From Parietichytrium sp. I65-24A (lineage: Eukaryota > Sar > Bigyra > Thraustochytrida > Thraustochytriidae): a stretch of DNA of 61,684 bases. The stretch's first letter is position 1. Each line of letters begins with the position of its first letter. Shown here piece by piece: positions 38,680-44,213 of this stretch. The notes beneath the pieces were generated by a model that was given only the letters and a program-made list of their open reading frames with translations, was not told the DNA's origin and made no database searches. The translations under genes and the position numbers were made by a program. The stretch covers positions 1 to 61,684 of the forward strand of contig BLSF01000038.1 in NCBI GenBank assembly GCA_012862575.1. Reading direction: 5' to 3'.

Positions 38680-41300
38680 TTAGAAAAGAGAGAAGCGCTG
38701 GGCAAGAGGAGCCGTTTCCAAAGGCTCGCAGCTCAGTATTTGACCGTCGGCGGTCACTTTGTAGGTCTCCGGATCGACAGTGATCTTGGGCATAGCGCAG
38801 TTGAGCTTCATATCGGATTTGGTGATTCCGCGGCACTTTTTGACAGCTTCGACGCGCTTGCTGAGCCCATAGAGAGTTCGGACATCTTTGTCCACAGCGC
38901 TCTGACTCACAAAAGCAATGGAGTGGGGTCCAACAGCTTTGCCGGCAGCGGCGAACATCGGCTGCATCACAACGGGCTCGCAAGTAGGCACGGATGCATT
39001 GGCATCTCCCATTTGTGCATATGCGATTGCTCCGCCTTTCACGACAATCTCTGGCTTTGCTCCGAAGAAGGCAGGCTTCCAAAGAACAAAGTCTGCGACC
39101 TTGCCAACCTCAATCGAGCCGATCAGGTGAGACATTCCATGGGCGATTGCAGGGTTGATGGTGTACTTGGCCACGTAACGTTTGGCTCGAAAATTGTCGG
39201 CTTTGATCTCGGCGTCCTCTGGGAGAAGACCGCGCTGGATCTTCATTTTGTGAGCAGTTTGCCAGGTCCTGGTCACAACTTCTCCGATCCTGCCCATTGC
39301 TGCAGATTTTTGGAAGAAAATACATGAAGAGGGTTAGAGATGACTAAAAAAAACAATCGCAAAGACGGCGTCAGCTTACCTTGAGAATCAGAAGAAATGA
39401 TACTTAGCGCGCCCATGTCGTGAAGAATATCCTCTGCCTGAATGGTCTCCGCGCGGATGCGGGACTCGGCAAACGCAAGATCTTCCTTAATGTCTTTGTG
39501 CAAGTGATGGCAGACCAAAAGCATGTCAAGATGCTCGTCGATTGTGTTGCGGGTGTATGGGCGGGTTGGGTTGGTAGAAGATGGCAGAACGCTTGCCTCC
39601 CCGCAGACGCGGATGATGTCAGGAGCATGCCCACCGCCTGCTCCCTCGCTGTGATAAGTGTGGATCGTTCGGCCCTTGAAAGCCTCTATGGAGTCCTCAC
39701 AGCAAGCCGATTCGTTCAATGTATCGGTGTGAATTGTGATCTGGACGTCCATCTCCTCTGCAATGGTCAGTGCAGTGTCAATCGAAGCCGGGGTCGTCCC
39801 CCAGTCTTCGTGAAGCTTGAGGCCGACAGCACCTGCAGAGATGACCTCACGCAAACCCTCCGGCTTGGACGCATTTCCCTTGCCGGTAAAGCCAAAGTTC
39901 ATGGGGAACTCTTCCGTGGCCTGGAGCATCATTTTGACATGCTGAGGGGCCGGCGTGCAGGTGGTTGCGTTCGTGCCGGTTGCAGGACCGGTACCGCCGC
40001 CCAAAAGAGTGGTAATGCCACTTGCGAGAGCCTCGGGAATTAGTTGAGGGCAGATGTAGTGGACATGCGCGTCAAAGGCGCCAGCAGTGAGAATCATACG
40101 CTCGCCAGCGATGACTTCGGTGTGAACGCCAACGGTCATGCCAGGGGTGACGCCATCCATGGTGTCTGGGTTGCCAGCTTTGCCAATCGCACAAATCATG
40201 CCGTTACGCACTCCGACGTCAGCTTTGTAGATTCCTGTGTAATCGATCACGAGGGCATTGGTGACAAGAAGCTCCAGCACCTCGTCATTATTCTCCACCC
40301 CAACGGCCATGCCCATTCCTTCGCGCAACACCTTGCCTCCTCCAAAGACGCACTCGTCTCCGTAGCTGGTCTTGTCGCTCTCGACCTTGACCCACAGTTC
40401 GGTGTCTCCCAAACGGACCATGTCGCCCGTTGTTGGGCCGTACATTTCTGCATAGTGCTCGCGGGTGACCATGGTTTTCTCGGCATCCTCGCTTTTCTTA
40501 GCGCGCTTTGCAGCTGGTTCCGAAGAGTCTTCTTCGACGTGCGCAAACTTTTGCTCTTTAACGCGCTCCGCAACGTTCTTCCTCGTAGCCTCAATGTTGG
40601 CGTCATCGGTGGGGCCATCCACGAGATTGTTGCCGCCAAAAACACGCTGACGTCCAGCGATCCTCACGAGGCGGACAGTCTTCGCATCGCCCGGTTCGAA
40701 ACGGACTGCAGTTCCAGAAAGAATGTCAAGGCGGAAACCGCAAGCCTTGACGCGATCAAACTCCAGAAGCTTGTTGGTCTCCGTAAAGTGGTAGTGGCTG
40801 CCCACCTGTATCGGGCGGTCCCCAAGATTCTTCACGCTGAGCTCAAGCTTCTCCCGGCCCGCGTTGATCTCGAGTGAGCCCTCCTCTGCCTTCACCTCAC
40901 CTGGGTAAGGCATGTCGTCGGCCATGTCTCCGAAAGCGGACAAATCTGGCGCAGGGTAAGGCGATCCATGAAAAGCCAAGCTCATATCTCCATCCGACTT
41001 GCACACTGGCTTGTCCACGGTCACTAGTTTGGTTCCGTCTGGGAATGTCCCTTCAACCTGCACCATGTCAATGAGGCTCGGCACACCAGGCATGACTTGC
41101 CGCGATCCGAGGATCTGGCGTCCCAAGTCCATCAGCTCCGCAACGCTCTTTCCATCGCGCGTAAACTCCAGAACCTGCGTGGCGATCAGCGCCACCGCCT
41201 CCGGGTGGTTCAGCCGCAGTCCTCTTGACAGCCTGCTCTGGGCCAGCATACCTGCCGACCTCAGCTTGAGTTTCCCATCTTCCCTCGGGTTCAACTTCAT
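38680..41300 (-). CDS. URE: urease, single-chain (gamma-beta-alpha fused)
   Basis: Nickel enzyme hydrolysing urea to ammonia and carbamate. Exons 39380-41300 and 38680-39299 flank an 80-bp intron (GTAAGC donor, CTGCAG acceptor). Splicing restores [14 protein letters not shown], a signature of urease. The chain is 846 residues, close to plant urease. A gamma part ([13 protein letters not shown]...) is followed by a beta part ([17 protein letters not shown]) and an acidic linker. The alpha part then begins near residue 285 ([14 protein letters not shown]). Metal-site HVH lies near residue 411, the carbamylated-lysine segment GLKLHEDWG near 494, and the mobile-flap cysteine in VCHHLHK near 594. 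ATG 41300 is chosen; codons upstream in frame lack another ATG. No accessory UreD/F/G gene is in the window. Confidence 0.97.
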
Positions 41301-42385
41301 TCTCTTCTTCACACTCCGCTCAAAGAACCTTTGCTCGCGAACACGCTCTGCGCCGACACTCGCAACTCCACCAATACTAAACCGTTCCGCAAGCCGCTGA
41401 CCTTTTTGGAAAGCCCTCGTCCGTCCCCGCAGTTGCTGTTACAGGATCGGCTGCTCGTTGGGTCCTCTCCGCGTACCACTGCGTCAACTTACGCCCAGTC
41501 CTTAGCACCGATTAGGACCTTTTGGATCTCTTTCCCTCTTCACACTCTTCACCGCCAGCTGAGTGCTACTAGATTCGCCTAACTAACCTCAGTACCAGCT
41601 CCGCATAATTGCCGACACTATCGATTTGTCTAGGTGGTCGTCTACAGTGTGTCTGTTCGTCCTAAACCGGGGAGAAAAAAGAAGAATGGCCTTAGATCCA
41701 ACTATTATCGAGTCCTACCGCGAAGTCAGATTCACTTGTTTTCCTTATTCGCGGTATAAGTGGTCCTACAAGCCGCAGGTTTTGACTTTTATAGAAACTG
41801 GTGATGAGGGAAATAAGGGTCAACATGCACCCATTCTTCATATGCATCTGAATCCTGGGGGATCTTGTTAAGAACGATTTAATTTTTCTCACTAATAGCT
41901 GCCCCCCAACGTTTGAAACAATCGTCAGCTAGCTACTTTAGCTCTCTCTCTCTCTCTCTCTCTAATAGTAAATAGAGTAGTAGTAGAGATATAGAGATAG
42001 AATACAAAGACTACTAGTTGATAGAGTAGCTCTAAGAAACGGGTATAGACCACATCTGTAAGCAATCTTTACCAGCGGAAATATGCCAAAAGCTAGGCAA
42101 AGTTGTACCGACTTCGCTTAAAAGCACCTAACGTAAGCTTAGTATTACACTCTCGCGTAGGTCACCGACTAATGAGTTGTCAAAAAGTGAAAGAAGACGT
42201 TTCCAAAGAGAAGTGTCCTCGGGGACAGGTCTGTCTTTGTGTTCAGTTATCCGTTGGAGAGAGCAAATCGACCAACTGCACGGGAGGGACACCTCACGTC
42301 ACGTCAACCGTTCCGTTGTCACTCTTCAAGTTCAGCGAGTTAATTGACTGTAAACCCCACACGTTGCACGTGCGGGGCCGTTACC
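41301..42385. other. divergent promoter region of urease and selenoprotein S
   Basis: No supported gene. It contains a pure CT microsatellite at about 41941-41963 and an imperfect inverted repeat enclosing CACGTG at 42355-42377, just before the selenoprotein S ATG. Confidence 0.45.
42355..42377 (+). promoter_or_regulatory. inverted repeat with central CACGTG
   Basis: CCCCACACGT and ACGTGCGGGG form 10-bp arms (one mismatch) around TGC, and CACGTG lies at 42367-42372. It ends 9 bp before the selenoprotein S ATG, so it is either a promoter-proximal bZIP/bHLH-type site or a hairpin in the leader. The function is inferred. Confidence 0.4.
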
Positions 42386-42850
42386 ATGGCGGACCCGCCA
42401 GACGCGCCAGACGCTGAACCCGTTGTAACGGACGTCTCGGCACACTCAGAATCATTCCCATTCTCACTCTCACTCTACTCGTTGGCGCCGTTTCTGGCGC
42501 TGTGCGCGGTCCTGGTGGTGGCGTACGTGCGTGTCCGCGGGATTTCGGACGTTGGGGGCAAGCAGCTGCAGAGGACTGTAACGGAAAGCGACGATGATCG
42601 CAGACGCGCGATGCTGGAGGTGCGTGCGGCGCAGCAGGAACGCATGGCGGCGGCGGCGGCAGAGCGGGAGGAGCGGGAGCGTTTGCAGAAGAAGCATCGT
42701 AAGGAGGAGAAGTTGGGGCTAAGGACGGAGTCCAGGGCGGAGTCCAGGGCGGACGCGTTCGGCCACCTCATGGGACAGGCGGGGGCAGGAGCCGTGCAAA
42801 GGCGTGCCTGGGGGGCAGAGCGGAGGAGGCCACGAGGCGGCTGAGGCTAA
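42386..42850 (+). CDS. SELENOS: selenoprotein S (VIMP/SelS) with C-terminal selenocysteine
   Basis: ER membrane selenoprotein; relatives recruit p97/VCP to Derlin complexes in ER-associated degradation. The ATG at 42386 (context ACCATGG) gives 154 residues if the UGA at 42842-42844 is read as selenocysteine; the true stop is then TAA at 42848-42850. A short lumenal N terminus precedes one membrane helix (SLAPFLALCAVLVVAYVRV, about 32-50). A long charged helix rich in Arg/Glu/Ala follows, then a basic, glycine-containing tail. The chain ends Gly-Gly-Sec-Gly, the same end as vertebrate SelS, with Sec as the penultimate residue. A SECIS-like hairpin lies about 150 bp downstream. Read as an ordinary stop, the gene would encode a 152-residue protein lacking its redox residue. 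Confidence 0.85.
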
Positions 42851-42993
42851 TGGCCGCGTCTGATACGAGAGGCTTGTCGTCCCCCGCCCCAATGCACGCG
42901 CATGCCAGGTGGGTTTCAGTCTCGAATCGAACGTGGCCCTTGGGCTAAAACTGGGAACTCAGTTTCGTCGCGGAAACACTATTTGCTACGAAG

Positions 42994-43070
42994 GATCTGC
43001 AATGGAATGATTCGGAAGGGCCGAACCAGTCGCAATATGCTGTGGTTTTCCGAGGACAAGAAAATTGATC
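42994..43070 (+). promoter_or_regulatory. SECIS-like element in selenoprotein S 3' UTR
   Basis: ATGA at 43007-43010 starts the 5' side of the quartet (TGAT 43008-43011). It is followed after exactly 12 nt by AA at 43024-43025, and GGAC at 43054-43057 forms the 3' side, allowing tandem G.A pairs. The stem TCGGAAGG/TTTTCCGA (43012-43019 with 43046-43053) is continuous, two of its pairs being G.U, and CCAG/CTGTGG can form a small apical helix (form 2). Below the quartet, CAAT pairs with ATTG (43000-43003 with 43064-43067) and GAT with ATC. Spacing and order match eukaryotic SECIS rules. The fold was done by hand. Confidence 0.75.
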
Positions 43071-43334
43071 GAGTAGCACTGTTTTTTGACGGTGTCTTGC
43101 TTGGTTGTATTTGGAGATTCGCAAATGGTGGATCCGTGGCCGCATGTTTTCCCCCACCTTCATGATAGAGTCATCGGTGTCATTCTCCCTCTGGCGTAGA
43201 TGTCGTGCTCCTGAGCCGACATTGGAGGGAGGTATGACAACTTGTCGTAGAAGGTCGTCCTAATGCTTGTCAGTTGCTATCTTGCGCTCAAGCAGCCTGT
43301 AAGTAAAAATAAATTGAGAAATCCAATTCAATAT
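43071..43334. other. 3' flank
   Basis: Rest of the selenoprotein S 3' region and the 3' end of the next minus-strand gene. Nothing else is supported. Confidence 0.4.
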
Positions 43335-44213
43335 TCATTCGTTACAAGTCGCTGCTATATCGAGGTGCCGCAGCAGATGCTGCAAATAGAGGGATGGAAG
43401 CACGTGGAGCACGTTTCCGGGTTCAAGTACCCCTGCGATTGCCCTTAGGGCTCGGTGAACAGAGATCCCATCCGCCGACTTCTCGCTTCGAGTTGTTTGA
43501 TTTGGGAATCGTAGAAACAACTGCTCCACGGCTTTCAGGACGTGAAAAGAGGTCAGTAAATCTCGCACAGCAGCATCTTCAAAGTGCAAGTCTTTGCCAC
43601 GGTTTTTGCCCAGCGAAATTCGATTAGCAAGCGTGTCACAGAACGCGGTGGCCCAAAGTCCAGGCCTAATTTCACCAAGGCGCGTCACCACAGTACTCCC
43701 CCGTCTTCCCGCATCTTCACTGGTGAGCATGGCTTCGCCTAAAGCCGCTGCGAAACCGTACAATCGCGCTGCGTCAAGTATTGCGAACCTCTCCAGCACT
43801 TCTCTGGCATCGCCAACCACCTCAAGAACTCCTCCCCCTCGAACCGCGCCTCTCATACAGCTCCCGCCAAGGCGCACGAACAATATCACCCGAGCGAGTT
43901 CAGGCTCCACAAGGCATCCCATCACGCGAACCAGAGCGACACTGTCATTTGTGCAAACAAGCTCGTCGCTGGAACTTCGCACAGGGCATTCGTCCGTGAG
44001 CAACGCTAGCGCCGTGGCCACCAGACATTTGAGCCTTCGGCCCGGATGTAAAATCTGAGACATGAAGGTTTCTCCTTCCCTGTTGCTCCCTCCTGATCTT
44101 GCCGCTGTTTCCTCCGCTGACTCGAGCTTCGGTTCCTCTTTGGGTTCTGCAGCCGCGCTTCTTTTGGTTCTTTCCTTTGCTTTTTCTCTCTCAAAGTTCG
44201 CATATTCATTCAT
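43335..44213 (-). CDS. uncharacterised protein, possible OB-fold segment
   Basis: Not recognised. The frame from ATG 44213 gives 292 residues; an internal ATG at 44063 gives 242. I favour 44063, because the first 50 residues are a charged stretch whose start lies inside a 117-bp tandem duplication. From the internal ATG it begins MSQILHPGRRLKCLVATALALL. A strand-rich segment follows (VALVRVMGCLV, ARVILFVRLGG, GGGVLEVVGD) and then helices (REVLERFAILDAARLYGFAAALGEA). A C-terminal helical region ends ...LLRHLDIAATCNE. The strand pattern is compatible with an OB fold as in small single-stranded-DNA-binding factors, but this is only a visual impression. Confidence 0.5.
   Translation of the reverse strand: MNEYANFEREKAKERTKRSAAAEPKEEPKLESAEETAARSGGSNREGETFMSQILHPGRRLKCLVATALALLTDECPVRSSSDELVCTNDSVALVRVMGCLVEPELARVILFVRLGGSCMRGAVRGGGVLEVVGDAREVLERFAILDAARLYGFAAALGEAMLTSEDAGRRGSTVVTRLGEIRPGLWATAFCDTLANRISLGKNRGKDLHFEDAAVRDLLTSFHVLKAVEQLFLRFPNQTTRSEKSADGISVHRALRAIAGVLEPGNVLHVLPSLYLQHLLRHLDIAATCNE

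Follow-up and report, generated by a model that had tools for sequence, protein, structure and literature searches.

Introduction

Selenoproteins of the SelK/SelS group are defined by three features: one membrane helix, located N-terminally; a tail in which Gly, Pro and basic residues abound; and a selenocysteine (Sec) that is the second or third residue from the end. SelK and SelS share this architecture with no significant sequence similarity (PMC10650576). In human SelS, Cys174 pairs with Sec188, and this stretch has been described as the most conserved part of SelS (PMC3628699). In unicellular eukaryotes, SelS is listed for Ostreococcus (PMC2375036), and in a study of 137 algae SELENOS is one of 42 families, nearly always has Sec and belongs to the families with the narrowest distribution (PMC7539508).

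We analyzed a 61,684-nt stretch of DNA from the thraustochytrid Parietichytrium sp. I65-24A (contig BLSF01000038.1), here called the window, and searched the genome from which it comes (42,540,916 bases, 172 contigs). In the window lies a gene for a small membrane protein; what looks like its stop codon, UGA 42842, is almost certainly read as selenocysteine, as in human selenoprotein S.

Results

Coding frame and protein

The features of the locus are as follows.

42386–42841, plus strand: SelS-like coding frame, 152 aa before Sec, with N-terminal membrane helix, long charged helix and Arg/Gly tail
42467–42523, plus strand: predicted single transmembrane segment, residues 28–46 (hydropathy)
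42842–42844, plus strand: UGA, proposed selenocysteine codon, residue 153 (frame reading and Sec machinery in the genome)
42845–42850, plus strand: Gly codon, then TAA as the proposed true stop (frame reading and word control)
42984–43078, plus strand: SECIS-like element with outer helix I, the latter in 42984–42997 and 43067–43078 (fold)
43007–43057, plus strand: SECIS core, with AUGA 43007–43010, helix II, AA 43024–43025, short helix III and GGAC 43054–43057 (fold and scan)
43308–43313, plus strand: AATAAA, possibly a poly(A) signal, some 250 nt downstream of the SECIS core (read by eye)

The frame opens at ATG 42386, in the context ACCATGG, and runs through 152 codons to TGA (42842–42844), GGC (42845–42847) and TAA (42848–42850), with no intron needed between 42386 and 42850. 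An earlier note on this DNA had described the frame as ending Arg-Gly-Gly-UGA-Gly-TAA, and our reading confirmed it: the C-terminal codons are GGC GGC TGA GGC TAA, at 42836–42850, an in-frame UGA followed by Gly and the proposed true stop. If the UGA is read as Sec, the protein has 154 residues, with Sec as the penultimate residue, 153. A short N-terminal part is followed by one hydrophobic segment, a long charged stretch, and an Arg/Gly tail ending AWGAERRRPRGG-Sec-G. Residues 28–46 (LSLYSLAPFLALCAVLVVA; mean hydropathy 2.28) form the sole predicted transmembrane segment, and the 29 tail residues, 126–154, include 8 Gly, 6 Arg and 1 Pro by count. The protein's only Cys, Cys40, lies inside the membrane helix; the tail has none. 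An AlphaFold2 single-sequence model predicted one long helix, residues 30–145 (mean pLDDT 76.2, pTM 0.36). The coding score was the best among the six frames yet weak, at 0.177 bits per codon vs. 0.13 for the next frame. A PDB sequence search with the window protein gave four matches, none of them significant (best E 1.6), a PDB structure search with the predicted model gave no structural match, and no relative was found in the viral contigs searched.

Upstream of the SelS-like gene, a single minus-strand frame (window 39276–41438) joins what Pfam identified as the gamma, beta and alpha regions of urease, and a CT-repeat run (window 41942–41963) lies between that frame and the gene. On the other side, the 3′ region of the SelS-like gene, 42851–43334, is bounded by a convergent minus-strand open frame of 292 aa that ends at 43335 and gave no match in a Pfam search.

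SECIS-like element in the 3′ region

A SECIS-like hairpin with an AUGA/GA quartet, helix II and AA is present in the 3′ UTR at 43007–43057, with its AUGA 156 nt past the TAA. The earlier note had proposed an ATGA, AA and GGAC layout, and these elements are indeed found, at 43007, 43024 and 43054; its spacing of 12 nt from AUGA to AA had to be corrected to 13 nt. The minimum-energy fold of 42980–43085 is this hairpin: helix II has 12 bp, AAC is unpaired, helix III is short, and helix I closes the element on the outside. The succession of AUGA, helix II, unpaired AAC and short helix III is the form II SECIS layout. Against shuffles the fold energy is ordinary (z = -1.08; 29 of 200 were at least as stable), and in a 135-nt context, made up of the 35 nt before the AUGA and 100 nt from the AUGA on, the minimum-energy structure is a different one. 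Mean pair probabilities for helix II were 0.81, 0.55 and 0.79 with flanks of 25, 50 and 100 nt, respectively. Because the fold energy was ordinary and the longer context had another minimum, the layout was tested instead.

The SECIS-like scanner required (A/G)TGA, an arm of 9–14 nt, an unpaired AA, a closed helix and GA, with a threshold of -8 kcal/mol. On both strands of the window it found four matches, three plus and one minus, of which that at 43007 was the strongest (-13.9 kcal/mol, 11 arm pairs). Local dinucleotide shuffling of the window (722 shuffles, 44.5 Mb, one strand) gave a chance rate of 0.0042 matches per kb with the threshold at -13.9 kcal/mol, and of 0.026 with the threshold at -8; given these low rates, only about 0.002 or 0.013 chance matches, respectively, are expected in the 480 nt behind the gene. 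Since the scanner was written after the candidate hairpin had been seen, other selenoprotein genes provide fairer tests of it. An Rfam search reported no SECIS at the window locus; this silence is uninformative, because the same search reported none at the SelT and two GPx loci described below.

Selenocysteine machinery and other selenoprotein genes

The earlier note had also held that the organism has selenocysteine machinery, and the genome bears this out: tRNA-Sec, SBP2, eEFSec, SecS and a SelD-type synthetase are all present in it. The tRNA-Sec gene (contig C42) scored 74.3 bits against a cut-off of 47, a cut-off that 5 of 14 prokaryote controls also passed. SecS (C5) scored 414.7 bits, and the SelD-type synthetase (C58) scored 279.4 bits against a cut-off of 125. 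For eEFSec (locus L005, on C4), which fell below the cut-off of the bacterial family TIGR00475, the best PDB matches were the Sec-specific elongation factor 5izk (1.5e-131) and the eEFSec of 7zjw. The best TIGR00475 match in the genome (L003, on C94) was rejected as an eEFSec candidate; by eye it looks like a mitochondrial EF-Tu. SBP2 (C8) was one of seven PF01248 matches, and its only PDB match at E 0.001 was the SBP2 of 7zjw (5.4e-20). We take the PDB chains 5izk and 7zjw to be human.

The SelD-type synthetase (L006; G000:C58:270167-274108, minus strand) is fused behind an oxidoreductase-like region in one long frame, and it has Cys rather than Sec in its CGGCGAK motif, as read by eye. Fusions of NADH-dehydrogenase-like and SPS regions have been described in protists, and horizontal transfer is the explanation given there for those that bacteria also have (PMC4561486).

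Four other genes with in-frame UGA codons, each at the expected Sec position, were found. SelT (L009), with ICTG-UGA-GY, is one of two Rdx matches, the other of which (L008) has no internal stop. Two of the four GPx matches have NVAS(K/T)-UGA-G (L012 and L015), and the other two have Cys at that position (L013 and L014). SelK (L016) was found through its first exon, which with its neighbors scored 24.1 bits (cut-off 23.3), and it ends PMAGGG-UGA-SR-TAA. The SelK gene (G000:C40; UGA at locus position 2141) apparently has two exons and carries a long poly-Gly run. The GPx gene L015 (G000:C15) apparently contains an intron; none of the SECIS-like hairpins seen was more stable than its own, at -26.6 kcal/mol.

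Each of these four Sec loci had exactly one scanner match, either strand counted, and in each it lay past the stop. The distances from stop to AUGA were 192 nt (SelT), 136 nt (SelK), 99 nt (L012) and 86 nt (L015), compared with the 156 nt of the window gene; the element of L012 (G000:C40) is weak (-9.4) and may be wrong. Over 29 loci (178,890 nt, both strands) the scanner gave ten matches: one in each of the four Sec loci and in L010, the copy of the window locus, and five that came singly from L002, L006, L023, L024 and L026, which belong to the 24 loci without a known Sec gene. The L002 match is more stable than the window's, at -14.2 kcal/mol, but has 9 arm pairs vs. 11. Neither folding energies nor pair probabilities discriminate among such elements: those of SelT and of one GPx gene scored near 0 when long flanks were included. 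The four selenoprotein genes with UGA, each with a SECIS-like match past its stop, indicate that the Sec code is in use in this genome.

The C-terminal word of the gene was also examined across the genome. The pattern GGNGGNTGAGGNTAA (GG-UGA-G-TAA) occurs six times vs. three for a reversed control pattern, so that the word itself is near background. The other five words follow open frames of 7, 15, 19, 22 and 28 codons (introns not considered), vs. 166 codons at the window, and none of them has a same-strand scanner match in the following 1 kb, the single match at L026 being on the opposite strand. Among the six words, only the window's ends a long frame and has a same-strand match in the 1 kb that follows. 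An ordinary membrane protein that ends at UGA 42842, with the Gly-TAA and the hairpin there by chance, would agree with the near-background frequency of the word and with a hairpin energy that is unexceptional against shuffles. Such a reading must also accommodate a SECIS-like match where only about 0.002 to 0.013 are expected by chance, the short frames of the other five words, none of which has a same-strand match, and the recurrence of the same layout at a similar distance in the four other Sec genes found, and we regard it as highly improbable. That UGA 42842 is recoded as Sec is, in our judgment, close to certain.

Relationship to selenoprotein S

The earlier note had assigned the gene to selenoprotein S. 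The membrane helix, the charged body and the GGUG tail on which this was based were all found; sequence homology is weak. The Pfam family PF06936 did not match the window protein even at E 10, and a PF06936 search of the genome did not match the SelS-like locus. Alignment to human SelS gave a score of 64, which was reached by none of 500 full shuffles and by 87 of 1000 shuffles that kept local composition; the similarity is thus not significant against the latter. BLASTP against human SelS alone gave E 9e-05 without composition adjustment and 0.084 with it. In the alignment, the tail W.AERRRP.RGGUG is placed against the human W..GRRGP.SGGUG, and the residues R..A....R...QE match after the membrane helix. 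As for the architecture, two marks of the SelK/SelS group are present in the window protein, the N-terminal membrane helix (residues 28–46) and the Sec at position 153 of 154. It also has the extended helix after the membrane segment (residues 30–145, AlphaFold2), presumably on the cytosolic side, that marks SelS; a Cys partner for Sec in the tail, which human SelS has, is absent. Support for the name SelS comes from this architecture, part of it predicted, and from the Trp/Arg/Pro...GGUG tail, and not from a significant similarity in sequence.

Two other sets of candidates were rejected. A PF06936 match at C3:415146-415229 (E 1.28, 28 positions, one TGA) was taken as chance, being antisense to another frame that is presumably SGF29-like. 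Two weak matches to the window protein (E 0.0086 and 0.042), with TAG/TGA inside, were taken as low-complexity similarity and not as paralogues. The PF06936 and window-protein searches gave no other credible SelS candidate in the genome.

The gene might instead encode a true selenoprotein of the SelK/SelS group that is not a SelS orthologue, that is, an independent or lineage-specific membrane protein with a C-terminal Sec. The silence of PF06936, the human SelS similarity that local shuffles can equal and the lack of a resolving Cys in the tail all fit such a protein, as does the precedent of SelK and SelS, which are alike in architecture with no significant similarity in sequence (PMC10650576). 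It accounts less well for the matches to human SelS in the penultimate Sec of GGUG, in R..A....R...QE after the membrane helix and in the W/RR/P tail; further, the genome's SelK is a different gene, and a credible second SelS candidate is lacking. We therefore consider a non-orthologous protein unlikely. Given recoding, orthology to SelS is very probable, and the combined reading, a divergent selenoprotein S of the SelK/SelS group with its UGA read as Sec, is only slightly less so.

Discussion

If the gene is expressed as a divergent SelS, the SECIS in the 3′ UTR of its mRNA would recruit SBP2 and eEFSec/tRNA-Sec, UGA 42842 would be translated as selenocysteine, and translation would stop two codons on, at the TAA. 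As judged from the sequence, the product would have 154 residues and end GG-Sec-G. Human SelS acts with the p97/Derlin quality-control system. By analogy with human SelS, the window protein presumably lies in the ER membrane and extends its long helix and its flexible tail, which bears the Sec, into the cytosol; it may have a role with that system. Because the tail has no Cys for a selenenylsulfide, any redox chemistry would need another thiol. A tentative suggestion, and one we hold to be rather doubtful, is that this is a SelS-type selenoprotein that lost or never had the Sec-pairing tail Cys, and whose Sec reacts with a thiol of another protein or acts as a one-residue sensor. The missing Cys offers a natural test of the need for the SelS selenenylsulfide; if the reading as a Cys-less SelS is true, the selenenylsulfide would not be essential to the function of the SelS family. 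Our literature searches, none of them aimed at that point, found no paper on a SelS without the tail Cys.

The present results add to a protist genome a divergent, profile-invisible SelS, together with Sec machinery and at least five predicted selenoprotein genes. Such genes are easily missed by gene finders, and an annotation that ends at the UGA loses them.

Human SELENOS/VIMP and the window protein have in common an N-terminal membrane helix, a long charged helix, an Arg/Gly tail, GG-Sec-G and a SECIS in the 3′ UTR. They differ in length (189 residues in human vs. 154 in the window protein, which is below PF06936 detection), in the tail, where human SELENOS has Cys174 and the window protein has no Cys, and in having little alignable sequence outside the tail. 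Algal SELENOS, from Ostreococcus and the algal selenoproteomes, is likewise a Sec-containing SelS of unicellular eukaryotes, a comparison made by report of presence only. SELENOK shares with the window protein the layout of a membrane helix and a C-terminal Sec; it is encoded in this genome by a separate gene, L016, its Sec is third from the end whereas that of the window protein is penultimate, and the long charged helix is a feature of the window protein. In sum, the SelS family is already known from animals and algae, and the window gene is a new, divergent member of it.
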